DNA of 64,000 bases from Mesorhizobium waimense (GTDB lineage: Bacteria > Pseudomonadota > Alphaproteobacteria > Rhizobiales > Rhizobiaceae): contig NZ_QZWZ01000001.1 of assembly GCF_003601975.1 (NCBI RefSeq), positions 372,001 to 436,000 on the forward strand. Reading direction: 5' to 3'. The stretch's first letter is position 1. Every line of letters begins with the position of its first letter. Below are positions 17,850-54,622 of this stretch, piece by piece. The notes under the pieces were generated by a model. That model worked only from the letters and a program-made list of their open reading frames with translations, searched no databases and was not told where the DNA came from. The position numbers and the translations under genes were made by a program.

Positions 17850-19739
17850 TCAGCGAATGTCGGCGGTCTGTCTCTCGGCCTGCTCGCCTGACAGCATCCG
17901 GGACAACCTGCTGCCGGATTCCTGCTTCAACCGCTGATACTGGCCGACCTCCACGATGCGGCCATTCTCGATTGCTACGACCCAGTCGGCGAAGGCGATC
18001 ATCGACGGCCGGTGCGCGATGGTCAGGATAGTCATCCGGCCGCGCAGCCCGTCGATCGACTTGGCGATCAGCGCCTGGTTCTGCCAGTCGAGCGCGCTGG
18101 TCGCCTCATCGAGGATGAGCAGGGAAGGGCTGCGCAACAGCGCACGCGCCAGCGCAATGCGTTGACGTTCGCCGCCCGAGAGCCGCACGCCGCGATCGCC
18201 GACCACCGTACCCAACCGATGCTCGAGCCGTTCGACGAAGTCGGCGGCATGCGCCGACCGCAGCGCCGCCCACAGTTCGTCGTCGCTGGCCTGCGGCGCG
18301 GCAAGGCGCAAATTCGCTGCGATCGTATCGTGCAGCAGGAACACGTCCTGCGGCACATAGGCCACCTGGTCGCGCCAGCGCCGGCGGTTTTGCGCGTCGA
18401 TCTCGACGCCGTCGGCGAGGATCTTGCCCTGCGTCGGTTCGAGCAGGCCAAGCAGCATGTCGGCGATCGTGCTCTTGCCCGATCCCGAAGGGCCGATAAG
18501 GGCGGTGACCTTGCCGGCGGGAAGACCGAAGGTGATGCCGCTCACCACCGGCTTGCCGCCCCCTTCGCCATCCCTGAGTGCTGGGGAAACGTCACCATAG
18601 GCGAACGAAACATCACGTATGTTGAGCCCGACATCGAGCGCCAACCTGGCGCCATCAGCGGGTTCGCTGCTCACCAGTTCGCGCTCCGCGTCGAATTCGC
18701 GCTCCGCGTCGAAGCGCGTCTGCAGGTCGCGCATCGAGGCATAGGCAGGCAGATTGATCAGGACCTGCTGCGCCTGGGTCTGCATGTCCATGAAGCGCGG
18801 CGCGATGCGCATGAAAACCAGCAGCAGCACGACGATCTCAGCCAGCGAAAGCTGGAAGCGAACCAGCGCGACATAGATGAACAGGCTGAGCCCGGCGACA
18901 CTCGCCACCTGGAACAAAGCGGTGCCGATCGTTGAGTTGCGCACGTAGTTGATGTTGTCGGCCTTCATCTTTTCGAGGGTCGACTGCAGCTGCGCGAAAT
19001 AGCTCGCCTCGACATTCAGGCTCTTGGCTACCTTAATGCCGCCCAGGAATTCCGAGACCGTGCGATACTGATCCTGGCGATTGGTCGTCACCACCCGGCC
19101 GAACGCCGTGGCCCGGGTGCGAAAAGGCCGCAGCGCGACGAACATCAGCACGCCGATCACGATGGCGAAGCCTGTCATCACCGGCGAGATGAACAGCGAT
19201 ATGACGAGATAGCCTGCCAAAAGCACGCCGATCTGCGCCAGCATCAGCAGCGAGAATGCCGCGGCCTGCACGCGGTCTATGTCGCCGGTGAGCGCATGGT
19301 CGAGATCGGAACTGCGCATGCGTGAGAAAATGCCCCAGCGCGCCTTGCCGATACTCTCGAACAGATTCATGCGCAGACGGTTGATGAAATCGAACAGAAG
19401 CCTGGCCATGTAGACGGACTTGAAGCGGTTGAAGGCCGCTTGCAGCGCGACAAGCCCGACCAGCGCGCTAAGCACCGTCGTCAGTTGCAGCGTCCCGTCA
19501 GGCACCAGCCAGCGCACGATATCGTTGTCCGGCAGTCTGACCGCGAAATTCTGCTCGGAACGCCCCACCAGTTGCAGCAAGGGAATGAGAAGCAGGATCG
19601 AGATGCCTTCGGTCAGGCTTCCCAGAACCAGGAAGAGCAAGGCCGTCCAGGTTCGCCGCCCGCCGATCCTGGCGATGACGCCGGCAAATCCGGCGATTTC
19701 CCGAAACAGCGACAAGCGAAGGACGGATGATGCCGGCAT
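17850..19739 (-). CDS. Lasso peptide ABC exporter (fused membrane and ATPase domains)
   Basis: A 629-residue half-size ABC exporter: six predicted membrane helices (about 1-320) then an ATPase with Walker A GPSGSGKS, signature VRLSGGERQRIALARALL and Walker B LLILDEATSALD. In lasso loci the D protein exports the mature peptide and provides self-immunity. There is no N-terminal cysteine peptidase, as expected because the B2 protein cuts the leader. The ATG at 19739 overlaps nothing important; the frame is open to about 19868 but that part overlaps the kinase gene. It is the last gene of the lasso operon. Confidence 0.85.
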   Translation of the reverse strand: MPASSVLRLSLFREIAGFAGVIARIGGRRTWTALLFLVLGSLTEGISILLLIPLLQLVGRSEQNFAVRLPDNDIVRWLVPDGTLQLTTVLSALVGLVALQAAFNRFKSVYMARLLFDFINRLRMNLFESIGKARWGIFSRMRSSDLDHALTGDIDRVQAAAFSLLMLAQIGVLLAGYLVISLFISPVMTGFAIVIGVLMFVALRPFRTRATAFGRVVTTNRQDQYRTVSEFLGGIKVAKSLNVEASYFAQLQSTLEKMKADNINYVRNSTIGTALFQVASVAGLSLFIYVALVRFQLSLAEIVVLLLVFMRIAPRFMDMQTQAQQVLINLPAYASMRDLQTRFDAEREFDAERELVSSEPADGARLALDVGLNIRDVSFAYGDVSPALRDGEGGGKPVVSGITFGLPAGKVTALIGPSGSGKSTIADMLLGLLEPTQGKILADGVEIDAQNRRRWRDQVAYVPQDVFLLHDTIAANLRLAAPQASDDELWAALRSAHAADFVERLEHRLGTVVGDRGVRLSGGERQRIALARALLRSPSLLILDEATSALDWQNQALIAKSIDGLRGRMTILTIAHRPSMIAFADWVVAIENGRIVEVGQYQRLKQESGSRLSRMLSGEQAERQTADIR

Positions 19740-19746
19740 GATCTGC

Positions 19747-20739
19747 TCACCGCGCGCGTTCGTCGGATGCCAGGTCCTGTTCGATGAGCGCCACGGCCTC
19801 GCCGATTCGGCCGAGGCCCGTCGGCACTTCGAGGCGGCACACGCCGATATGGCCAGCCAACCCGGCACAGTGGCGAAGGTGCCGGGTGGCGAAATCGCCG
19901 ACCAGGGCCGGCCGCCCGAAGCGTGTCACGTAGGAGAATTTGATGACGGCCGACAGCGCCTCGACCTCGGGCAGCGGCGATATCGCTGCCTTTTCACCGC
20001 GCTCGAGAATGTAGAGCCTCGTCACAGGAACCTTGTCCGGCGAAAACCCGCCATGCAGGCGATGCTGTGCCTTGTCGATCGCCGGATGCACCTGTGGGCG
20101 CACTTCCGCTTGCCGGATCGGGATGGCGGCCGCGGCGTCGGCAGCGAGCTTCAGCTGCGGAAAGCCCGGAACGATCATCGGCTCGTCCGGGCTGGACAGG
20201 TCGAGCGCCACGACATCGTCGCTCAGCAAGCCGTGCCCGGCGCTGATCATCGCGCCGGCCGTCGTCGATTTGCCGGCGCCCTTGTCGCCCATGAAGATGG
20301 CGCTCCTGCCGCCGACGGCAATCGCGCTGGCATGCAGGATGAGCAGGCCGCGCTGGTGCAAAAGCAGCGCCATGACCGGCCCGAGCAGCGGAAAGGCGAT
20401 CAGCTGGTCGTCTATCCCTGGCGCCGGATCGACAACGATCCTGCAGGCGTCGCTGATCAGGAAGGCGCCGACCGCCTGCCATGCCAGATATTGATGCCTC
20501 GGTTCGAAACGGAAAGCGGTTCCGGCCTCGAGCGAGGGTTTTGGATAGTCGATCGGACCGACGGCGATCACGATGTCGGCCGCGGCCGGCGCCGTCGGCT
20601 CGAGTTCGGGCAAGGCCAGTTCCGAGCTGATCGTCAGGCCGTAGGCCTTGTAGAAGCGGCGCTCTCTCTCCGGATTGCCTTCGACACGCAACCGAGCATG
20701 CCCCGGGTCGGCCGCGAGCGACGTGTTCGATCTCGTCAT
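19747..20739 (-). CDS. HPr kinase-like lasso peptide kinase
   Basis: A 330-residue protein with a P-loop AIFMGDKGAGKSTTAGAMIS near residue 180 and a nearby LLSDDVVALD acidic motif, the arrangement of HPr kinase/phosphorylase-like proteins but lacking the normal HPrK N-terminal and capture-loop features. Homologues in lasso loci (for example the paeninodin kinase) phosphorylate the C-terminal serine of the precursor. The precursor encoded here does end in Ser (position 50), which fits. Translation is coupled to the cyclase gene by an ATGA overlap at 20736-20739. The N-terminal 120 residues are a variable recognition region. Confidence 0.8.
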   Translation of the reverse strand: MTRSNTSLAADPGHARLRVEGNPERERRFYKAYGLTISSELALPELEPTAPAAADIVIAVGPIDYPKPSLEAGTAFRFEPRHQYLAWQAVGAFLISDACRIVVDPAPGIDDQLIAFPLLGPVMALLLHQRGLLILHASAIAVGGRSAIFMGDKGAGKSTTAGAMISAGHGLLSDDVVALDLSSPDEPMIVPGFPQLKLAADAAAAIPIRQAEVRPQVHPAIDKAQHRLHGGFSPDKVPVTRLYILERGEKAAISPLPEVEALSAVIKFSYVTRFGRPALVGDFATRHLRHCAGLAGHIGVCRLEVPTGLGRIGEAVALIEQDLASDERAR

Positions 20740-22667
20740 GCTTGGCTCCCACGCAGTTGAACTTGCCGTAACCAGAGAGAAAGCGCGATTGAGCGCCAGA
20801 CACACTGGACATCGGGCAGGGTCGCCTCATCCGGCTGCCCGAGGATCCGCGCATAGGCCGCGCTCACCTCAGGCAGGTTGACATAGGGCGCGATGCGGTC
20901 CGCATCCGATACCAGCACCTTGTCGACGAGGTCGCGGTGGTTGCCGAGCATGCCGTGGACGAGGTTGGACTTGAAATCGATCTTGTCGCGCCGCCATTGG
21001 ACTGACGGCGGCAGGATCCCTTCCATGGCCCGTCGCAGCACATGGCGGCCAAAGCCGTTGTGCAGTTTCTCCTCGCCCGGCAGCGCCAGGCAGAACTCGA
21101 CCAGCGGCTTGTCCCAGAACGGATAGCGCGGCTCCATCCCGAAATTGGCGGCCGCCTTGTCGAGAACCTCGAAGGCGTGCGGCACGACGCCGTTCGACAG
21201 AATCCAGCGATGGCTAAGCGCTTCACTGGCAGTCACCGCGGACGGCATGTGTCCGGCCCTGTGGAAGCGTTCGATGAGGTCGGTCCGCCTGGCAAGGTCC
21301 GGATTGACCAGGTGGCGCCAGCTCGCGCCGCGCGGTGCGGCAGGCCTGCTGCGAACCCTGTCCAGGATGCGGCGTGCCGTGTGCCTGAGTTTTGCGATGC
21401 GCCAGGCCGGCCCGTAAAGGGTCAGGAACTGGTAGTACAGGCCCAGCATGCTGTCGCCATAGGTGTTCGAGGCGCTGCGGATCTCCCGCCACAGCTCCAT
21501 CCATTTGCCGGCATTGGCAAGCTCGTGCAGATGGCCATGACCTTGCGAGACGACTTCGTCGCCGCCATGGCCGTCCAGCAGCACCTTCATTCCTTTCGCG
21601 CCAGCCTCCCTGTAGATGCCGCGCGTCAGCGACAGGCCGGGCGCCAGGAACGTCCCCTCCTGCTCTTCGAGGATGCGTTCGAACTCGGCGAACGGCGCGT
21701 AATTGCCGACGGCAATCAGTGTGCCGTCGACCTTCTGCTGGCCGATCACCGCGTCGATGAAAGGCCTCTCGTCCATCGAGGAGCCGCTTTCGAAGATCAG
21801 CGAAAAGGTCGGCAGTCTGGGCTTTCGCGCCATGGCGTTCTGCAGGCCCGCCACGCAGGCGATCGCGGAAGAATCGAGGCCGCCGCTGAGCATCGCGCCG
21901 ACCGCCGGTGTGCCCCGCATGCGGTTGCGGACCGACTGCGAGAACAGGTGGCGGAATTCCTCCGCGGCATCGGACCGCATCGGCCTCGGCGACGGCTCGA
22001 TCTGCCAGTAGCGGCGCAGCATCACTTGGCTGTCGCTCACCGTCAGGCTGTGGCGGGCCGGCAAGCGGAAGATGTCGGTATAGGGCGTCGACTGCGGATC
22101 GTCGGGCAGCCCGGCCAGAAACCCTGATATCTGATGCTCGCTGAGACGCGCGCCGGCACCGCTGACGGCGAAGATGGGACCGATCTCCGAAGCGAAGATA
22201 AAACGCTGGTCATCCGCATGATAGTAGAAGGGTTTCACCCCGAAATGGTCGCGCGCGCAAAACAGCGCCTGGCGTTCGCTGTCCCAGATGGCGAAGGCGA
22301 AATCGCCTTGCAGATAGGTCGGGCATGCCTCGCCCCAACGCAGATAGGCGCGCATCAGCAGCGAGCCGTCGGCAAGCGAAGCGTCCCTGATGCCAAGCCT
22401 GGCCAGCAATTCCTCGCGATTGTCCAGCCGGCAGTCTGCGGTGATGGCGAGCTTGCCGCCAGCCATAGTCAGCGGGCCGGGGCCGGCTTCATCCGTTGTG
22501 TTCAGCCAGGCATGGCCGAGGGCCGCTCCAAGGGGTGCGGTCGCGTCCACCCACCAAGAACTGCCGTCACGGGCGCGATGCTGCATGCGCGCCAGCATTT
22601 GCTGGATGTCGGCCGCGGCGGTCGGCCTGCCTTGCTGCCTGGGCATAATTCCGGCGATGCCGCTCAT
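20736..22667 (-). CDS. Lasso peptide macrolactam cyclase (asparagine synthetase-like, McjC type)
   Basis: A 643-residue asparagine-synthetase homologue. The N-terminal glutaminase-like half starts MSGIAGIMPR: the Cys2 nucleophile needed to use glutamine is Ser, so it cannot release ammonia, as expected for a cyclase that uses the peptide's own amine. The synthetase half has the ATP-pyrophosphatase loop AMLSGGLDSSAIACVAG near residue 260 and a later GHGGDE motif. In lasso biosynthesis this enzyme adenylates the ring Asp/Glu side chain and closes the bond to Gly1. It lies 4 bases from the B2 gene and is coupled to the kinase gene. Confidence 0.88.
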   Translation of the reverse strand: MSGIAGIMPRQQGRPTAAADIQQMLARMQHRARDGSSWWVDATAPLGAALGHAWLNTTDEAGPGPLTMAGGKLAITADCRLDNREELLARLGIRDASLADGSLLMRAYLRWGEACPTYLQGDFAFAIWDSERQALFCARDHFGVKPFYYHADDQRFIFASEIGPIFAVSGAGARLSEHQISGFLAGLPDDPQSTPYTDIFRLPARHSLTVSDSQVMLRRYWQIEPSPRPMRSDAAEEFRHLFSQSVRNRMRGTPAVGAMLSGGLDSSAIACVAGLQNAMARKPRLPTFSLIFESGSSMDERPFIDAVIGQQKVDGTLIAVGNYAPFAEFERILEEQEGTFLAPGLSLTRGIYREAGAKGMKVLLDGHGGDEVVSQGHGHLHELANAGKWMELWREIRSASNTYGDSMLGLYYQFLTLYGPAWRIAKLRHTARRILDRVRSRPAAPRGASWRHLVNPDLARRTDLIERFHRAGHMPSAVTASEALSHRWILSNGVVPHAFEVLDKAAANFGMEPRYPFWDKPLVEFCLALPGEEKLHNGFGRHVLRRAMEGILPPSVQWRRDKIDFKSNLVHGMLGNHRDLVDKVLVSDADRIAPYVNLPEVSAAYARILGQPDEATLPDVQCVWRSIALSLWLRQVQLRGSQA

Positions 22668-22670
22668 TGG

Positions 22671-23087
22671 CTACTGGCCGTGATCGACGAGATGGGCGAA
22701 ACCACTGATGGAACCGCCAAGGACAACATTGTTGCCGCTCATTAGCCAGGCATGCGCCTTCAATTGCGTGCCGGTGTCCCGCTCGATGCCAATGCGTATT
22801 TTCGAGGCGTTGCCCTGGCGGGCGAGAATATATTGGCCGGAGAGCGCCTGGGTAAGGCAGCTTGCATAGGGAACGAGACGAGCTGCCGCGGCAACGCCCC
22901 AGGCGACCCGCCTGAGGTCGCCGATGCCGGCCTCGTGAGGCGCATCGAGCCGCGTCACCATGCGGCGAAGACGGTTGTACGAAAACAGCGTCAATCCCAA
23001 GCGCACCGCCGCGACCACCAGCAGACAGTGCGCCAGAAACAGCATCTCCGAGCCACTCAAGGAGAGAACCCTAGACAAGTTCCTCAT
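22671..23087 (-). CDS. Lasso peptide B2 leader peptidase (transglutaminase-like)
   Basis: A 138-residue protein of the McjB C-terminal/transglutaminase-like fold. The catalytic Cys lies in PYASCLTQALSGQYIL and the His in LKAHAWLMSG, the standard order for the Cys-His-Asp protease that removes the lasso leader. The third residue is less clear here: the loop after HAW reads SGNNVV. A hydrophobic N-terminal segment (FLAHCLLVVAAVRLGLTLF) may tether it to the membrane. I start at the ATG at 23087, preceded by GAGGCTCC; it overlaps the upstream PqqD-like gene by 17 bases, indicating coupled translation. Confidence 0.83.
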   Translation of the reverse strand: MRNLSRVLSLSGSEMLFLAHCLLVVAAVRLGLTLFSYNRLRRMVTRLDAPHEAGIGDLRRVAWGVAAAARLVPYASCLTQALSGQYILARQGNASKIRIGIERDTGTQLKAHAWLMSGNNVVLGGSISGFAHLVDHGQ

Positions 23088-23370
23088 GGTGGAGCCTCGC
23101 AAGCCCTGCCTCGGCCAGGCCTTTCAACAACCCGTCGACGTCGGCCTTGCAACGCTCCGGATCGACGTCGTAGCGCGTGAGCACCGCGCTGCGGATATCC
23201 GCGATCGGCCGCGGCTCCTGGATCAGTTCCCAGATATAGGCCCCGACGCTGTTCAGGCTGTAATAGATGTTGGATTTCAAATTGAGCAGCGCCAGCCCGT
23301 TGCCGAACTCGCAGGCCACGGCGTCATTGGTAGCACTTACGCTATCGCGGTCCGATGGGTTCCAGTTCAT
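23071..23370 (-). CDS. PqqD-like lasso B1 protein (RiPP recognition element)
   Basis: A 99-residue PqqD-family winged-helix domain. The recognisable core is ACEFGNGLALLNLKSNIYYSLNSVGAYIWELI, where NIYYSLN-x-VG-x-x-IW is the usual lasso B1 signature, followed by a helical C-terminal part with a YDVDPERCKADVDGLL helix. These domains bind the leader peptide through a beta-strand and present it to the B2 protease. It is the first enzyme gene after the precursor, with the hairpin at 23427-23449 in between. Confidence 0.85.
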   Translation of the reverse strand: MNWNPSDRDSVSATNDAVACEFGNGLALLNLKSNIYYSLNSVGAYIWELIQEPRPIADIRSAVLTRYDVDPERCKADVDGLLKGLAEAGLARLHHEELV

Positions 23371-23426
23371 CCCAAAACCTCGTTTACAATACGCTACGCT
23401 TCGTCATGTTCAGGACCGGTTGGAAA

Positions 23427-23449
23427 GCCGGGGGATTTTGCCCCCCGGC
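23427..23449 (-). terminator. GC-rich hairpin between lasso precursor and maturase genes
   Basis: GCCGGGGG, a 7-base AT-rich loop (ATTTTGC side) and CCCCCGGC form a near-perfect 8-bp stem. Read on the operon strand it lies between the precursor stop (23506) and the PqqD-like start (23370). No long T run follows on that strand, so it is more likely a partial terminator or RNA-stability element that lets the precursor be made in excess over the enzymes, as is common in RiPP operons. Confidence 0.6.
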
Positions 23450-23505
23450 CTCCCTTTTCATTTACGCCCGGAGCCCCAACTTTGTACTCCGGGACGAAAC
23501 CAAGC

Positions 23506-23658
23506 TCAGGAGAACGTGAGTTCGCCGATCGGCGTATGGGCGGGAAACGACGCGTCGAGCGCCGTCGAGCCACCGCCGCCTTGCGTGATGGTCTCGATCG
23601 AACCGTGGACCGTCAGGCTAGGCGTTTCGTACTCATGCTTTTCAACATTCTGTTCCAT
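23506..23658 (-). CDS. Lasso peptide precursor (candidate, 50 residues)
   Basis: A small ORF with a leader of 26 residues and a core of 24. The leader shows the lasso recognition pattern YxxPxLxxxG: Y10, P13, L15 and G19, and Thr25 sits at the second-last leader position, which the B2 protease and transport normally require. The predicted core starts at G27 (a run of four Gly, then S and T) and has D35 as its ninth residue, giving a Gly1-Asp9 ring; a second acid E46 is too far away to close a 7-9 ring. The core holds F38, P39, H41, P43 and ends T-F-S. The C-terminal Ser is a candidate target of the adjacent kinase. The ATG at 23658 has CGGAGAG upstream. Confidence 0.88.
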   Translation of the reverse strand: MEQNVEKHEYETPSLTVHGSIETITQGGGGSTALDASFPAHTPIGELTFS

Positions 23659-47845: not shown

Positions 47846-49753
47846 CTAAACCCCTATCCCGCGTCCCTTCAGCGCCGCGGTGATCTCGTCAAGGATGACG
47901 GGGTCGTCGATGGTCGCCGGCATGGTCCATTCTTCCTTGTCGGCGATCTTCTGCATCGTGCCGCGCAGGATCTTGCCGGACCGCGTCTTGGGCAGGCGCT
48001 TGATCGTCACCACCGTCTTGAAGGCGGCGACCGGACCAATCCGTTCACGCACCAGGGAGACGACCTCGCTTTCGATGGCGCCGGTGTCGCGCGTGACGCC
48101 CGCATTCAAAACGACAAACCCGAGCGGAACCTGGCCCTTCATCTGATCGGCGATGCCGATGACGGCGCATTCGGCAACGTCCGGATGCGCTGAAAGCACC
48201 TCTTCCATGGCGCCGGTCGACAGCCGGTGGCCGGCGACGTTGATGATGTCGTCGGTGCGAGCCATGACGAACAGATAGCCGTCCTCGTCCATCATGCCGG
48301 CGTCGGCCGTCTTATAGAAGCCGGGGAATTCTTCGAGATAGGCCTGCCGGAACCGGGCGTCGGCATTCCACAGCGTTGGCAGGCAGCCAGCCGGCAGCGG
48401 CAGCTTGACCACGACATTGCCCAGCGTGCCGCGCGGCACTTCATGGCCGGCATCGTCGAGCACGCGGATGTCGTAGCCGGGCATCGGCACACCGGGCGAG
48501 CCGTATTTCACCGGCAGCAGCCCGAGCCCGGCCGGATTGATGGTCATCGGCGAGCCGGTTTCGGTCTGCCACCAATGGTCGATCACCGGCACGTTCAGTT
48601 TCTGCTCCGCCCATTTGATGGTTTCCGGGTCGGCACGCTCGCCGGCGAGGAACAGCGTGCGGAATTTCGACAGATCGAATTTCGGCACGAATTCGCCCTT
48701 GGGGTCTTGCCCCTTGATGGCGCGGAAGGCGGTCGGCGCGGTGAACAGCGCGACGACTCCGTGCTCGGCGATAACCCGCCAATATGTGCCGGCATCCGGC
48801 GTGCCGATCGGTTTGCCCTCGAACAGGATGCTGGTGCAGCCATGCAGCAGCGGGCCGTAGACGATGTAGGAATGGCCGACCACCCAGCCGACATCGGATG
48901 CCGCCCAGAACACCTCGCCCGGCCTGACGCCGAACTCGTTTTCCATCGTCCATTTCAGCGCGACCATGTGGCCGCCATTGTCGCGCACGATGCCCTTCGG
49001 CTGGCCGGTCGTGCCTGACGTGTAGATGATGTAGAGCGGATCCGTGGCCAGCACCGGGACGCAATCGACATTGGCGCCGGCGGCGCGCTCGCGGGCAACG
49101 GCGTCGGCATAGTCGATGTCGTAATGGTCTTTCAATTCACAGCGCAACTGGTCGCGCTGCAGGATCAGGCAGGCGTCCGGCTTGTGTTTGGAAAGCTCGA
49201 TGGCAGTGTCGAGCAGCGGCTTGTAGGCGACGGTGCGTCCAGGCTCCAGGCCGCAGGAAGCGGAAATAATCAGCTTCGGCCTGGCGTCGTCGATGCGGGT
49301 GGCAAGCTCGTGCGAGGCGAAGCCGCCGAAGACCACCGAATGCACGGCGCCGAGGCGCGCGCAGGCAAGCATGGCGAAGGCCGCTTCCGGCACCATCGGC
49401 ATGTAGATGATGACGCGGTCGCCCTTGCCGACGCCACGGTTCTTGAGCACCGAAGTCAGCGCGACCACCTCGCGCTTCAGTTCGGCATAGGTGAACTTCC
49501 TGACCGTGCCGGTGATCGCGCTATCGTGGATCAGCGCGATCTGGTCGGCGCGGCCGCCTGCGACGTGACGGTCGACGGCGTTGAAGCAGGTGTTGCAGGA
49601 GGCACCGGTGAACCAGCGGCCGTAAACGCCGGCTTGCGCATCGAAGACACTGTCGGGGGGCGAATACCAGTCGATCGCTTTGGCCGCCTCGGCCCAGAAC
49701 AGTTCCGGGTCGCGTTTCCAGCCTTCGTAGACTTCATGGTAGCGTGACGCCAT
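47846..49753 (-). CDS. prpE: Propionyl-CoA synthetase
   Basis: A 635-residue acyl-CoA synthetase. Motifs: YIIYTSGTTGQPKGIV (AMP binding), WWQTETGSPMTINP, YKTADAGMMDEDGYL, the DDIINVAGHRLSTGAMEE hinge, and the acetylatable lysine in RSGKILRGTM. The start YHEVYEGWKRDPELFW is typical of PrpE. It activates propionate with ATP and CoA. Monocistronic; no link to the polysaccharide genes. Confidence 0.9.
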   Translation of the reverse strand: MASRYHEVYEGWKRDPELFWAEAAKAIDWYSPPDSVFDAQAGVYGRWFTGASCNTCFNAVDRHVAGGRADQIALIHDSAITGTVRKFTYAELKREVVALTSVLKNRGVGKGDRVIIYMPMVPEAAFAMLACARLGAVHSVVFGGFASHELATRIDDARPKLIISASCGLEPGRTVAYKPLLDTAIELSKHKPDACLILQRDQLRCELKDHYDIDYADAVARERAAGANVDCVPVLATDPLYIIYTSGTTGQPKGIVRDNGGHMVALKWTMENEFGVRPGEVFWAASDVGWVVGHSYIVYGPLLHGCTSILFEGKPIGTPDAGTYWRVIAEHGVVALFTAPTAFRAIKGQDPKGEFVPKFDLSKFRTLFLAGERADPETIKWAEQKLNVPVIDHWWQTETGSPMTINPAGLGLLPVKYGSPGVPMPGYDIRVLDDAGHEVPRGTLGNVVVKLPLPAGCLPTLWNADARFRQAYLEEFPGFYKTADAGMMDEDGYLFVMARTDDIINVAGHRLSTGAMEEVLSAHPDVAECAVIGIADQMKGQVPLGFVVLNAGVTRDTGAIESEVVSLVRERIGPVAAFKTVVTIKRLPKTRSGKILRGTMQKIADKEEWTMPATIDDPVILDEITAALKGRGIGV

Positions 49754-50371: not shown

Positions 50372-50452
50372 GTGAAGAAAACTTACGAAAAGCCTGTGTT
50401 GAGCAAGCGCGAGAAACTGTCGAAATTGGTGGCCACGGCTGTCAGCAGGTAG
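50372..50452 (+). CDS. Candidate RiPP precursor peptide 1 of second locus (26 residues)
   Basis: A 26-residue ORF from a GTG with GGGGG 5 bases upstream. The N-terminal part KKTYEKPVLSKREKLSK shows YxxPxL (Y5, P8, L10) like lasso leaders, but has Glu at position 14 where Gly is usual; V-A-T follows with T22, and only four residues remain. It resembles rhizobial peptides annotated as putative RiPP precursors. It is 107 bases before the PqqD-like gene. With so little core it may act as a leader-like decoy or a degenerate precursor. Confidence 0.55.
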   Translation: MKKTYEKPVLSKREKLSKLVATAVSR

Positions 50453-50559
50453 CCGACGCAAGAAGGCCGCTTCAGCGATAGAAGCAGCCCGACGATAGAC
50501 AGCACCGCGCTGCCGCGCTAATTGCTCTCCAGCTAACGTACATGGTCTGGGGAGGGCCC

Positions 50560-50847
50560 ATGGTCGAAATCGCCTCTGAAATGGTTCTGCGGCTGGCGGA
50601 CGACGCCTCGGTACAGCATGTCGGCGACGGCGCCGTGGTGCTTCTGGCGCGCAGCGGCCAACTCTTTACCTGCAACGGCACCACCGAAGCCTTTCTCGAC
50701 AAGGTCGACGGCGCGCGCAGCCTCGACCAGATCGTCGATCTGCTGTCCGACGAGTTCGAGGTCGACAAGGATATGCTCGACCAGGACATGGCGGCCCTGG
50801 CCGCCGAATTGGTGACGGAAGGTATCCTCGCCGATCCGGGGGCGTGA
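50560..50847 (+). CDS. PqqD-like RiPP recognition protein (second locus)
   Basis: A 95-residue PqqD family protein: LRLADDASVQHVGDGAVVLL, SGQLFTCNGTTEAFLDKV, then SLDQIVDLLSDEFEVDK, the normal strand-helix plan. GGGGAGGGCCC immediately precedes the ATG at 50560. It overlaps the next gene by one base (TGATG). By homology to 23071-23370 it should bind the leaders of small precursors encoded nearby. Confidence 0.85.
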   Translation: MVEIASEMVLRLADDASVQHVGDGAVVLLARSGQLFTCNGTTEAFLDKVDGARSLDQIVDLLSDEFEVDKDMLDQDMAALAAELVTEGILADPGA

Positions 50848-51272
50848 TGGCAGACGGCCCGTTCTTGCGCGCGCTGTTTCGCGCCCATCTATGGGCCAGC
50901 GCGCGGCTGATGCCGGTGCTGATCGGCCAACGCGATTTCGAGACCGTGCTGAAATGGGCGCCGCTCAGCGCGCCGACCCCTTATCTCGGCCTGCCCTCCG
51001 CCTACATCGTCGCCAGCGTCAACCGCACGGTCAGGCATCCCTGGCTGATGCGCGACCGCAGGTGTCTCAGGGAAGGCCTGCTGGCGCATCGCTTCCTGCG
51101 CCTTGCCGGCTTCGACCCGGATCTGCGCTTCGGCGTCGACCCGAAGTCGATGCATGCGCCACGCATGTCGGCGCATTGCTGGGTCTGCCTCGACGGCCGG
51201 CCGGTGGTCAGCGACAGCCTGCCCGGAATGGTGGAGATCTATCGTCACCACGCCGAGGGCAAAACCGCTTGA
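50847..51272 (+). CDS. Lasso B2-type leader peptidase (second locus)
   Basis: A 141-residue transglutaminase-like protein. Catalytic Cys in RRCLREGLLAHRFLRLAG, His in MSAHCWVCLDG, with the Asp of LDGRPVV as the third residue; this triad is clearer than in the first locus. Hydrophobic or membrane features are weak. Translation is coupled to the PqqD-like gene (overlap at 50847) and to the kinase gene (overlap at 51269-51272). Confidence 0.85.
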   Translation: MADGPFLRALFRAHLWASARLMPVLIGQRDFETVLKWAPLSAPTPYLGLPSAYIVASVNRTVRHPWLMRDRRCLREGLLAHRFLRLAGFDPDLRFGVDPKSMHAPRMSAHCWVCLDGRPVVSDSLPGMVEIYRHHAEGKTA

Positions 51273-52255
51273 GCGGCTCGGCCGCAGATACCTGCTATGC
51301 CCTTGACGGACAGGTCATCGGCATCTCGGCCGAACGCGCCGAGCTGTGGCGGGAGTTGGACCGCATGCTCGGCACCTTGCGCATCACCGGCACGGTAGAG
51401 CCGGATTTTCGCGTCAGCGTCGTCGAGACGCTTTCACTGCCCGAGACGCCGGCCGGGACACTCGCCTTCGACGGCGAGGTGCCCGAGGACGGCCACTGCC
51501 GCATGGTCGACGCCAGTGAGATCGTCCATCTGATCTTCCCCGGCCGCCACACGGTCTCGATCCATGCCGGCGAGCGTTGGGCCGAAATCCGCGTCCGCCC
51601 GGATACGAAGATCGCCTGGACGCTCTGGATGCTGGTGCTCGATGCCGCGCTCGATGCCGGCGGCCAGCATATGCTGCACACGGCCGGGCTGACGCTGCCG
51701 GATAGCGATGCCCTGGTTCTCGTCCATGCGCCCAGCGGCACCGGCAAGACGACGACGTCGCTCGCTCTGGCTTCGCAGGGCTTCGGCCTCTGCTCCGACG
51801 ATGCCATGATCCTGAACGTGGCGTCGGACAAGGCCGTCGCCTGGGGCCTGCCGCGCCATGTGAAGATCCACCGCAAGACGGCCGAGCTGGTCCCGCTCGT
51901 TTCGCCCTGCCTCGGTCCCTCCTGGGACCGCAATGGCGAACAGGCCGTTTCGCTCGAGCACCTCGGCAAGATCATCCGCGTCGAAGGCCCCGGTGCCCGG
52001 CCGGTCGCAGCACTCCTTCATCTAGCGCGTTCGGCCGATGGCCAGACCCGGCTCGTTGCCATGGCCAGGACCGACGCCATGGTGGCGCTGGCCGCCGACA
52101 ATGTCAGGACCGGCATGACCGGCCTGCTGCCGCTGCAGAAGCGCCGGCTGGCGACGATCGCCCGGCTGGTCTCGACAGTTCCGACCTTTGCGCTGGAGGT
52201 GGGCGCACAGCCGGCCGATGCGGCGTCCTTGATCCGCTCGGCGTTGGCCGACTGA
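51269..52255 (+). CDS. HPr kinase-like RiPP kinase (second locus)
   Basis: A 328-residue protein with P-loop VLVHAPSGTGKTTTSLALAS near residue 150 and a following LCSDDAMILNV acidic motif. The same arrangement as 19747-20739 but with low similarity elsewhere. It starts at a TTG whose last bases overlap the previous stop (TTGA). In this locus the precursor cores have Ser and Thr, which could be phosphorylated. It converges on the nucleotidyltransferase gene. Confidence 0.8.
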   Translation: MSGSAADTCYALDGQVIGISAERAELWRELDRMLGTLRITGTVEPDFRVSVVETLSLPETPAGTLAFDGEVPEDGHCRMVDASEIVHLIFPGRHTVSIHAGERWAEIRVRPDTKIAWTLWMLVLDAALDAGGQHMLHTAGLTLPDSDALVLVHAPSGTGKTTTSLALASQGFGLCSDDAMILNVASDKAVAWGLPRHVKIHRKTAELVPLVSPCLGPSWDRNGEQAVSLEHLGKIIRVEGPGARPVAALLHLARSADGQTRLVAMARTDAMVALAADNVRTGMTGLLPLQKRRLATIARLVSTVPTFALEVGAQPADAASLIRSALAD

Positions 52256-52283
52256 CGGCAGGACGACCGGGCCTGTTCCGGGA

Positions 52284-53303
52284 TCAGGCACGATATGGCC
52301 TTGGCTTCGCCAATCTCTGGACCCAGCGGAAGGCATCGCGCCGCAGGCGCGAACGCATCCTGTTCCTCGAATTGACGCCGAGCAGCGTATCCCGGGTGAT
52401 CAGCCATCTGGCGAGCCGAATGCCGAGATCGGGCCTGATCCGGTTGGCGAGTTCGAGCCCGCGGGGCTCGTCGAACAGCCGGCCGGTCACATCGAGCACG
52501 GTCGCCAGTTCAAGCTCGATGCCGGTCATGCGCGCCGCCTCCAGCAGGCGCGCTTCCGCATCGGGCGTTTGCAGCGCCCGCACGCCTTGCAGCACGTCCA
52601 CGCAAAGCTGCAGCCGGTGGAATTTATGTCCGCCGGAGGCGTGGACAATTGCGATGGTGAGCAGGGCGGCCGGCGTGTCGGCCTCGTCGCCGTCGATCGC
52701 GCGCAATTCCTTGAACCCCAGCGACAGCCGCCGCCGCATGCCGGAATCATGCACCAGATTGCCATGCAGCTCGATCAGCAGGCTCGAATTCTCCTTCTCC
52801 AGCCATTTGAACTCCTGCAGATCTTGCGACTGGGCTTCGCCGCTGCACAGCCGGAAACCGGATGCTGCTATCACCCGGTTGGCGTCGTCGAGACGGGCCG
52901 GCTCCACCAGGATGTCGATGTCGGTAAAGGGGCGATCGGCGACATTGCGGTACAGCTTTCGTGCAAAGGCCGGACCCTTGACGATCCGCGCCGGAATCTT
53001 GTCCGCGGCGAGCGCCTTCATGATGCGGTCGCCATGGTATTGCAGCAGCATCGACTGCCCGGTGACCAACGTCGACTTCTGGCGCAGATCGGATAGCGTC
53101 TCCTGCACGCCGGCATCCCGAGGCAGATGCGCGTCGCTGCGCTCCTGCAGTTTGCGCAGCATGATCGGCAGCACGCCGTGGAATTCGGCATTGGCCAGCA
53201 GGGCCAACAAAGTTTTAGCTGTCGGAACCTCGGCCGTTCGAGCCTCCGGATCCGCATAGTTCAGCAGCAGATTTTCATCAGCGGGCGCAAGTGGTGGCAG
53301 CAT
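52284..53303 (-). CDS. Nucleotidyltransferase family protein (second locus)
   Basis: A 339-residue paralogue of 24168-25316. Key segment: RIVKGPAFARKLYRN then DRPFTDIDILVEP, the KG followed by D-I-D acidic pair. I start at the ATG at 53303 (LPPLAPADEN), since the frame upstream to 53444 has no family sequence. It is convergent with the kinase gene and divergent from the precursor-like gene at 53462. Its repeated association with lasso-like machinery suggests it modifies the peptide or its phosphate. Confidence 0.78.
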   Translation of the reverse strand: MLPPLAPADENLLLNYADPEARTAEVPTAKTLLALLANAEFHGVLPIMLRKLQERSDAHLPRDAGVQETLSDLRQKSTLVTGQSMLLQYHGDRIMKALAADKIPARIVKGPAFARKLYRNVADRPFTDIDILVEPARLDDANRVIAASGFRLCSGEAQSQDLQEFKWLEKENSSLLIELHGNLVHDSGMRRRLSLGFKELRAIDGDEADTPAALLTIAIVHASGGHKFHRLQLCVDVLQGVRALQTPDAEARLLEAARMTGIELELATVLDVTGRLFDEPRGLELANRIRPDLGIRLARWLITRDTLLGVNSRNRMRSRLRRDAFRWVQRLAKPRPYRA

Positions 53304-53461
53304 CAACCTGGGTCGGCGTTTTGCGCATTGGAAGACAATGTTGCGAATATGGTTGCAGAAAAGCACCACGGAAACCAGTGCGGCGGCACCAAACCTGGCG
53401 CCAGAATTGACTTGGCGAAGGGTTATCCTCCATTCTTGGCGCAAAATCGGAGGCTATTCGG

Positions 53462-53557
53462 ATGACCAAGAAGAAATATGTGGCGCCGGTGCTGCGCAAG
53501 GCCGGCAGATTGTCCAGCGTCACGGCGGGCAACGGCAGTTCGGGACCGACAATCTGA
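53462..53557 (+). CDS. Candidate RiPP precursor peptide 2 of second locus (31 residues)
   Basis: A 31-residue ORF with GGAGG 8 bases before the ATG. Residues 6-23 fit YxxPxLxxxGxxxxxTxG exactly: Y6, P9, L11, G15, T21 and G23, the lasso leader pattern ending with Thr at the second-last leader position. The implied core is only nine residues (G-N-G-S-S-G-P-T-I) and has no Asp or Glu, so it cannot form the lasso macrolactam. It is too short for routine gene calling. The reading-frame ending is a clean TGA. Confidence 0.72.
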   Translation: MTKKKYVAPVLRKAGRLSSVTAGNGSSGPTI

Positions 53558-53602: not shown

Positions 53603-54589
53603 CTACATTCCCCAGCGCAGTGCAGCCGTATGCACGGGTGCGTCCCACAATGCGGTCGTCTCGGCGTCGAGCATGGTCAGCGTGATCGAGCAGCCGGCCA
53701 TGTCGAGTGACGTGACATAGGATCCGACCAGCGAGCGGGTTACAGTCACCCCGTGCTTCTCGAAAATCGCCCGGGCGCTGTTGTACATCAAATAGAGTTC
53801 CATCAGCGGCGTGCCGCCGAAGCCGTTGACGAACAGCAGCGCCGGGCCCTTTGCGCTGCCGTCCAGATCGCCCAGGATCGCCGTGCAGATCTCCTCGGCG
53901 ATGGCATCGGCGCTCTTCAAGGCATCGCGCCGCCTGCCGGGCTCGCCATGAATGCCGACGCCGAACTCCATCTCGCCGTCGCCTATATCGAAGGTCGGCT
54001 TGCCGGCCGCCGGCACGGTGCAACTGGTCAAGGCCACGCCCATCGAGCGCGTTGCGCCATTGACGCGCTCGCCCAGTGCCTTCAGCGCTTCCAGCGCCAT
54101 GCCTTGCTCTGCCGCCGCACCGAGGATCTTCTCGACCACCAGCGTGCCGGCAACCCCGCGCCTGCCTGTGGTGTAGGATGAATTCTCGACCGCGACATCG
54201 TCATTGGTCACCACTTGCATGACGCCCTCCGACATCTCGGCCGCCATGTCGAAGTTCATCACGTCGCCCTCGTAGTTCTTGACGATGAACAGGCAGCCGG
54301 CGCCGGTGTCGACGGCCTGCGCCGCCGCCAGCATCTGGTCCGGCGTCGGCGAGGTGAACACCTGGCCGGGGCAGGCGGCGTCGAGCATGCCGTGCCCGAC
54401 CAGCCCGCCATGCAGCGGCTCGTGGCCCGAGCCGCCGCCGGAGATCAGCGCCACCTTGCCCGGCTTCAGCACCTTGCGGCGGACGAATTTGTGCTCCTCG
54501 CCCAGCACGAGGATGTCGGCATGGGCGGCGACGAAGCCATCAAGGCTTTCGGTCAGCATCGTGTCTACCGAATTCAGGAATTTCTTCAT
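53603..54589 (-). CDS. dhaK: Dihydroxyacetone kinase subunit DhaK
   Basis: A 328-residue DhaK: GGGSGHEPLHGG (substrate loop), FIVKNYEGDVMNF, and GVGIHGEPGRRR with the His that binds dihydroxyacetone covalently. It works with DhaL and DhaM in the PTS-driven kinase. GGGAGGACACC precedes the ATG at 54589. Last gene of the long leftward operon. Confidence 0.9.
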   Translation of the reverse strand: MKKFLNSVDTMLTESLDGFVAAHADILVLGEEHKFVRRKVLKPGKVALISGGGSGHEPLHGGLVGHGMLDAACPGQVFTSPTPDQMLAAAQAVDTGAGCLFIVKNYEGDVMNFDMAAEMSEGVMQVVTNDDVAVENSSYTTGRRGVAGTLVVEKILGAAAEQGMALEALKALGERVNGATRSMGVALTSCTVPAAGKPTFDIGDGEMEFGVGIHGEPGRRRDALKSADAIAEEICTAILGDLDGSAKGPALLFVNGFGGTPLMELYLMYNSARAIFEKHGVTVTRSLVGSYVTSLDMAGCSITLTMLDAETTALWDAPVHTAALRWGM

Positions 54590-54622
54590 GGTGTCCTCCC
54601 GACACACTTTTGCTTAAGGCGA

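Follow-up and report, generated by a model that had tools for sequence, protein, structure and literature searches.

The closest described relatives of the system analysed here are the linear polyphosphorylated peptides (LPPs) of Bacillota, which were reported by Popov et al. in May 2026 and presented there as the linear counterpart of phosphorylated lasso peptides (PMC13381572). They belong to the ribosomally synthesized and post-translationally modified peptides (RiPPs); their gene clusters are cyclase-less, the kinase LppK polyphosphorylates Ser3 of the core, and the report states that they are restricted to Bacillota. Among lasso peptides, BsfK phosphorylates core Ser3 with the help of BsfB1 (PMC10368454), and the pseudomycoidin transferase attached hexoses to a phosphorylated lasso peptide in vivo (PMC8498205). 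Here we analyse a window of 64,000 nucleotides, the whole stretch of DNA under study, from Mesorhizobium waimense (contig NZ_QZWZ01000001.1, positions 372,001 to 436,000). In it a PqqD-like RiPP recognition element (RRE, B1), a B2 leader peptidase, an HPr-kinase-like kinase and a PF14907 nucleotidyltransferase are encoded together at 50372..53557, with two tiny precursor open reading frames (ORFs) flanking them. We refer to the four genes as the cassette.

We favour, with a probability of roughly 0.7, the reading that one central cassette trims and Ser-phosphorylates precursors encoded in trans all over the genome, with short linear peptides as the expected products. In RRE-Finder, lasso-type RREs without both leader peptidase and cyclase were treated as possible false positives (PMC7470986). 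The RRE and peptidase without cyclase found here form a conserved system, and its presence matches that of the likely substrates.

According to the published account, LPP clusters and the cassette have in common a discrete RRE, an HPr-like kinase, a nucleoside triphosphate (NTP) transferase, the lack of a cyclase and a YxxP leader; in both, a lasso locus often lies in the same genome and the product is linear, which for the cassette is a prediction. The LPP peptidase is described as an archaeal-type signal peptidase (SpI-like), whereas that of the cassette is a lasso-type B2; no SpI-like peptidase is found among the four cassette genes of the window, whose flanks, like the whole genome, were not profile-searched for one. 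An MsbA-like exporter is given among the LPP core genes, whereas none lies among the cassette genes; one to three precursors of 35-200 residues are reported per LPP cluster, against 3-20 per cassette genome that are mostly 26-35 residues long and scattered; and the LPP leader YxxPxVLxHQxIxFETxxS differs from the cassette leader YxxPxLxKRxxLSxVTA.

Phosphorylated lasso systems (paeninodin, pseudomycoidin and Bsf; PMC8498205, PMC10368454) share B1, B2 and the kinase with the cassette, some of them also the nucleotidyltransferase. Their leaders, as published, have Y(-17), P(-14), L(-12) and Thr, Ile or Val at -2 before a core with Ser, as do the cassette precursors, whose leader spacing equals that given in PMC10368454. 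In these systems a cyclase is encoded and the core carries a ring acid, whereas the cassette has no cyclase and its precursors a ring acid in 5 of 92 cores. Thus B1, B2 and a lasso leader with Thr or a similar residue at -2 are present, and yet the cassette is not a lasso system, because cyclase and ring acid are absent. What defines LPPs, an RRE, an HPr-like kinase (here by fold and weak profiles) and an NTP transferase without cyclase, is found. The cassette would appear to work like the Bacillota LPPs while missing three of their features, namely the peptidase, the leader motif and the in-cluster exporter, and may be described as a B2-type, in-trans variant of linear phosphorylated peptides in Alphaproteobacteria. 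Prochlorosins (PMC10783134) offer a parallel in which a single modifying enzyme acts on numerous precursors dispersed across the genome; as described, they differ in their lanthipeptide synthetase, Nif11-type leaders and otherwise unrelated enzymes. We recognised no description of a cyclase-less B2 cassette or of scattered lasso-leader precursors in Mesorhizobium in the literature covered, in which most subscription journals were not included.

Results

The cassette in the window

The genes lie as follows:

47846-49753, minus strand: acyl-CoA-synthetase-like gene, left flank (named by eye)
50372..50452, plus strand: precursor peptide A, 26 residues, GTG start, leader ..TYEKPVLSKREKLSKLVA, predicted core TAVSR (strict leader pattern)
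50542..50847, plus strand: PqqD-like RRE (B1), 101 residues (PF05402, 41.5 bits, cut-off 23.4)
50844..51272, plus strand: B2 leader peptidase, transglutaminase-like, 142 residues (NF033537, 72.3 bits, cut-off 33; PF13471, 44.6 bits)
51269..52255, plus strand: HPr-kinase-like kinase, 328 residues, TTG start (HPr kinase profiles below cut-off, and predicted fold)
52284..53303, minus strand: nucleotidyltransferase PF14907, about 339 residues, with the start revised to 53303 (95.6 bits, cut-off 31.2)
53304..53461, no strand: divergent intergenic stretch between the nucleotidyltransferase and precursor B (read from the sequence)
53462..53557, plus strand: precursor peptide B, 31 residues, ATG start with GGAGG upstream, leader ..YVAPVLRKAGRLSSVTA, predicted core GNGSSGPTI (NF033521, 21.4 bits, cut-off 19)
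53603-54607, minus strand: DhaK gene, right flank (TIGR02363)

The PqqD, B2 and kinase genes, all on the plus strand, overlap their neighbours by a few bases, and the nucleotidyltransferase gene is on the minus strand. Neither a cyclase nor an ATP-binding cassette (ABC) exporter was found between the acyl-CoA-synthetase-like gene and DhaK, by profile searches of the window and inspection of its ORF list. An earlier note on this DNA had read the locus in the same way, and the profiles PF05402, NF033537 and PF14907 together with the kinase fold bear it out. So does precursor B, for which the note claimed an exact lasso leader and an acid-free core of nine residues: the leader has Y(-17), P(-14), L(-12) and T(-2), the peptide passes NF033521, and the core holds no Asp or Glu. 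The start of the nucleotidyltransferase is most likely 53303 and not the TTG at 53444; of the sequences that extend as far as 53303, at least 98% have Met there.

The strict leader pattern YxxPxLx5[LI]xx[VIL][TV]A, which also demands a nearby start upstream and a short core downstream, matches the window exactly twice across all six frames, at precursors A and B. It is expected 0.000 times per window; none of 100 simulated windows matched, which rules out a chance origin of both leaders. A looser pattern, expected 0.41 times per window, additionally picks up the lasso precursor at 23506-23658.

Conservation of the cassette

The kinase was matched at E<1e-100 in 80 of 119 Mesorhizobium genomes, and the same genomes have a transferase match. 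From the 79 other cassette loci we fetched 60, of about 10.5 kb each, approximately in the rank of their kinase match and not at random. The order acyl-CoA-synthetase-like gene, PqqD, B2, kinase, nucleotidyltransferase, DhaK is kept in 60/60, with DhaK only partly present in one locus (L128). In an order-wide sample the kinase was found at E<=1e-10 in 17 of 397 genomes, 11 of them outside the genus, and PqqD, B2, kinase and nucleotidyltransferase occur together in all 11 loci from these other Hyphomicrobiales families. A single scan of contigs with the kinase profile and one short pattern gave at least seven loci, a number that is no census.

A tblastn search with the lasso cyclase of the window matched none of the 60 genus loci (626 kb), none of the 11 other-family loci (205 kb) and none of six named loci out of the seven from the contig scan; five of seven controls responded, with E from 0 up to 8e-4, and the remaining two, which stayed silent, are weak PF00733 places. 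In seven relatives (L073, L075, L088, L091, L099, L114, L128) kinase and nucleotidyltransferase stand further apart, by about 1 to 2.2 kb of additional DNA, in which the cyclase search had no match either. At a distance of 4-7 kb, ABC-transporter matches accompany the cassette in 4/60 genus and 2/11 other-family loci. Within the best-aligned stretch of the four cassette proteins, no stop was found in 61 genus loci.

A scattered precursor family

With a profile built from 24 precursors, the 80 cassette genomes yielded 702 matches at E<=0.1, with a median of 9 and a range of 3 to 20 per genome. Of the 39 genus genomes without the cassette, 36 had no match and three had one each. At least three precursors were consequently present in 80/80 cassette genomes against 0/39 others (Fisher p=2.6e-32, kinship ignored). 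Precursors are scarce at the cassette itself, with 27 matches in 22 of 61 genus loci of the size given above. Homologues of precursor A stand upstream of PqqD at the same place in some relatives; those of precursor B lie between nucleotidyltransferase and DhaK, likewise in some relatives and sometimes as two in tandem. The M. waimense genome has ten matches at E<=0.001; four of them stand in tandem on another contig, one with the core ANGASGPTGPAG. When twenty ORFs next to four precursor sites in this genome were scanned against Pfam, no shared partner gene appeared; transglutaminase-like or two-component genes are near two of the four.

In the other families, precursor matches at E<=0.01 were obtained in 8 of 11 cassette genomes. 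They are mostly distant from the cassette in five (G161, G357, G481, G493 and G504, the last with six in tandem) and beside it in three (G248, G275, G444). Weak candidates with E about 6e-3 lie near PqqD in G276 and G393. Three genomes of the order-wide sample without the kinase had one weak match each.

Leaders and cores

We collected 97 unique precursors, from which 92 cores were counted after leaving out one without a start codon, a second outside the anchor pattern, whose core would read VASGPVG, and three with cores longer than 16 residues. Their common leader has Y(-17) in 93/95, P(-14) in 95/95, L(-12) in 91/95 and T or V at -2 in 92/95, and L(-6) and A(-1) are also nearly invariant. 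The ratio of nonsynonymous to synonymous polymorphism (pN/pS) in the leader was 0.19 for 15 precursors at site B (between transferase and DhaK), 0.26 for eight at site A (upstream of PqqD) and 0.44 for 96 mixed ones. Judged from these ratios, the leaders are under purifying selection, which supports translation, and the precursors look like translated genes with variable cores.

The cores have mostly 5-13 residues and are rich in Gly, Ser, Pro and Ala. Ser is present in 92/92, against 80/92 in the best of 2000 composition shuffles. Because the profile that fetched the 97 precursors included the core Ser, the test was redone with a leader-only profile, itself derived from the leaders of the same precursors, on 173 loci none of which had been picked for a precursor match; Ser was found in 38/38 short cores. 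The last Ser within the first eight core residues is at position 3-6 in 83/92, and this Ser is followed by Gly in 42/92 and by Lys in 14/92. Asp or Glu is absent from ring positions 7-9 in 87/92 cores, and from both cores of the window, TAVSR and GNGSSGPTI; 70/92 have neither residue anywhere (22/92 have one). Cys pairs surround the core Ser at five loci of two genomes (L176, L180, L181, L184 and L187; G061, G069), as in ACTPSTCVD, VCTPSNPCPG and QACPVSHCTVD; since they flank Ser, a disulfide loop round the residue to be modified is possible.

The lasso locus and its cyclase

A complete lasso locus lies 27 kb from the cassette (17850..23658, minus strand, by Pfam and pattern), with the genes:

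23506-23658, minus strand: lasso precursor (looser leader pattern)
23071-23370, minus strand: lasso PqqD-like gene (named by eye)
22671-23102, minus strand: lasso B2 (Pfam)
20736-22667, minus strand: lasso cyclase (Pfam)
19747-20805, minus strand: lasso kinase (Pfam)
17850-19868, minus strand: lasso ABC exporter (Pfam)

The core of its precursor, GGGGSTALDASFPAHTPIGELTFS, fits a Gly1-Asp9 ring and is Ser-terminal, as in kinase-modified lasso peptides.

The lasso cyclase was matched in 85 of the 119 genus genomes, at 12 to 35 kb from the cassette kinase in 30 pairs on the same contig. Five genomes have the cassette without the cyclase; each holds a single B2, and their precursor matches number 6, 6, 6, 7 and 16. 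Ten have the cyclase without the cassette, with no precursor match in seven and one in three. Three or more matches are thus found in 5/5 against 0/10 of these discordant genomes (p=0.0003), and the precursors follow the cassette, not the lasso cyclase. In G101 (C1:3583056-3584737) the lasso cyclase is present only as two separate fragments; the cassette and seven precursor matches are kept. In nine of the 11 cassette genomes from other families, the B2 of the cassette is the only B2-family gene.

The cassette enzymes

Cys74, His111 and Trp113 of the B2 are invariant across 13 aligned sequences. It is 41-49% identical to the B2s of other-family cassettes, against 21% for the B2 of the window's lasso locus; its relatives are called 'lasso peptide biosynthesis B2 protein' in RefSeq, and close ones are named from Hoeflea, Phreatobacter and Bauldia (database names, their loci being outside this comparison). 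A PDB sequence search with this B2 gave no match.

In the kinase, the Walker A region APSGTGKTT and Asp177-Asp178 are kept in an alignment of 14 sequences, four from the genus and ten from other families. Its AlphaFold2 model (predicted local distance difference test, pLDDT, 92.3) has phosphoenolpyruvate carboxykinase (PEPCK) 1ayl as best Foldseek match (E=3e-10), and a profile match links it to HPr kinase 1jb1 (E=0.0017). The PEPCK fold is that of HPr kinase. By predicted structure and weak profile matches, the kinase matches the PEPCK/HPr-kinase fold. It resembles the NCBIfam families HprK-rel-A and -B weakly, at 28.1 bits for TIGR04352 and 20.2 bits for TIGR04355, far below the cut-offs of 200, and it does not belong to HprK-rel-A by that measure.

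K109-G110, D128-x-D130 and E178 of the nucleotidyltransferase are invariant in 11 sequences across families. The predicted structure is nearest to MenT, ANT(2'')-Ia and LnuA, with no Foldseek match at E<=0.001, and the predicted fold does not tell whether the donor supplies a nucleotide or another group.

Discussion

A sequence of steps can be proposed for the favoured reading. Each cassette genome supplies 3-20 precursor genes, mostly distant from the cassette and with one leader common to all. PqqD would bind the leader at YxxPxL, by analogy with lasso B1 proteins, and the HPr-like kinase would phosphorylate a core Ser, usually at position 3-6, as suggested by BsfK and LppK. B2 would then cleave after Ala(-1) and free a linear peptide of mostly 5-13 residues, a step proposed because the leaders have the exact lasso spacing and the peptidase keeps its Cys and His. 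Finally, and least certainly, the nucleotidyltransferase may place a nucleotidyl or sugar group on the phosphate or on Ser. At no step would a ring be closed.

Several points weigh against this reading. The whole system is known here from sequences and predicted structures alone, and the co-occurrence of cassette and precursors may partly reflect shared ancestry. Three genomes without the cassette (G095, G112, G114) carry one precursor match each, by remnant or chance, and among the 11 cassette genomes from other families G194, G276 and G393 have none in the set at E<=0.01. Among the five cyclase-free cassette genomes one is only 79% complete, the other four being 99-100% complete, and 75 of the 80 cassette genomes do have a lasso cyclase match, so that in these the cyclase may play a part in trans. 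The position of the core Ser varies from 3 to 8, whereas it is fixed at Ser3 in BsfA and LppA. In G031 (L091) the nucleotidyltransferase is matched in two pieces that overlap, and it may be disrupted there; no exporter is found among the cassette genes. The Bacillota protein LppN was reported to be inactive in its expression host (PMC13381572), for which reason the last step is modelled on pseudomycoidin.

The alternatives differ in what they make of the missing genes. If the cyclase of the lasso locus acted in trans, the products would be cyclic or lasso peptides and the cassette a second helper set, which would suit the frequent presence of that cyclase at 12-35 kb. This is very unlikely, since the five cyclase-free genomes retain 6-16 precursors and the ten with cyclase and no cassette have 0-1; furthermore, the fragmented cyclase of G101 left seven precursors in place, most cores lack an acid at 7-9 or altogether, and nine of 11 other-family genomes have no second B2. 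As a general rule the proposal is rejected on the discordant genomes. The loss of two lasso genes could also be taken as decay, with the remaining genes non-functional, and the GTG start and very short core of precursor A and the possibly broken transferase of G031 would agree with it. That is scarcely credible next to an identical gene set in every one of the 71 fetched loci, which span several families, and decay was rejected on the intact frames, the catalytic residues kept in kinase, transferase and B2, and the selection on the leaders.

Two further alternatives would keep the linear peptide or its precursors and change what becomes of them. The main mark could be a nucleotide, with the Pol-beta-type transferase nucleotidylating, for example adenylylating, core Ser or its phosphate; the transferase was matched in 71/71 fetched loci, its KG, DxD and Glu are invariant, and the nearest predicted folds belong to enzymes that transfer nucleotidyl groups. 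We regard this as rather doubtful, given that the pseudomycoidin enzyme, the sole studied relative, attached hexoses in vivo (PMC8498205) and that the fold leaves the donor undecided. An internal regulatory use, for instance as decoys or phosphate-linked regulators that are not exported, would account for the missing exporter and for single precursor genes that sit beside assorted genes. It is unlikely: an unlinked pump is possible, a few loci have ABC matches nearby, and the cores are variable behind constant leaders, which is typical of secreted RiPP families.

The earlier note is supported in its interpretation, in which a phosphate or nucleotide on Ser is a prediction. Its two precursors are indeed at the locus, but the other matches in the M. 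waimense genome place them in a scattered, in-trans family. It suggested an unknown product; the cyclase-less linear peptide finds support, though its class is not wholly unknown, linear phosphorylated peptides having been described in Bacillota (PMC13381572). It had judged a cyclase acting in trans unworkable on the core of precursor B, and that possibility is disfavoured because some genomes keep cassette and precursors without the lasso cyclase. The neighbourhood comparison that it proposed gave the cyclase-less gene set in 60/60 genus and 11/11 other-family loci, with an adjacent cyclase in 0/60 and 0/11, and the peptides, whose lack of conservation would have spoken against it, have leader pN/pS of 0.19-0.26 at two syntenic sites, although a local precursor was found in only 22/61 genus loci.

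These results would widen the range of the linear relatives of phosphorylated lasso peptides beyond Bacillota to Alphaproteobacteria, where the peptidase is of another type and the precursors are scattered and in trans. The natural knock-outs, cassette without cyclase and the reverse, and the 92 cores provide material on how B2, kinase and nucleotidyltransferase act without a cyclase.

Plasmid-borne precursors

Mesorhizobium sp. AR02 (G069) has four precursor matches on a plasmid of 357,630 bases and one on a plasmid of 95,476 bases. A tblastn search with one precursor at E<=1 found four plasmid records, all from Mesorhizobium and two of them weak; the kinase had no plasmid match at E<=1e-10. 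A precursor on plasmid pMspAR02b (L285, record 312170-324247) has an IS66 transposase and a recombinase gene within a few kb, a neighbourhood which suggests that precursor genes are mobile without the cassette. Tentatively, one may picture a genome-wide marking of peptides, in which one chromosomal cassette acts in trans on mobile mini-precursors from plasmids and chromosome, and linear peptides of 5-13 residues with a phosphate-linked nucleotide or sugar on Ser form a microcin-C-like combinatorial library for rhizobial signalling or competition. Two of the plasmid-borne precursors are already labelled 'putative RiPP precursor' in RefSeq.

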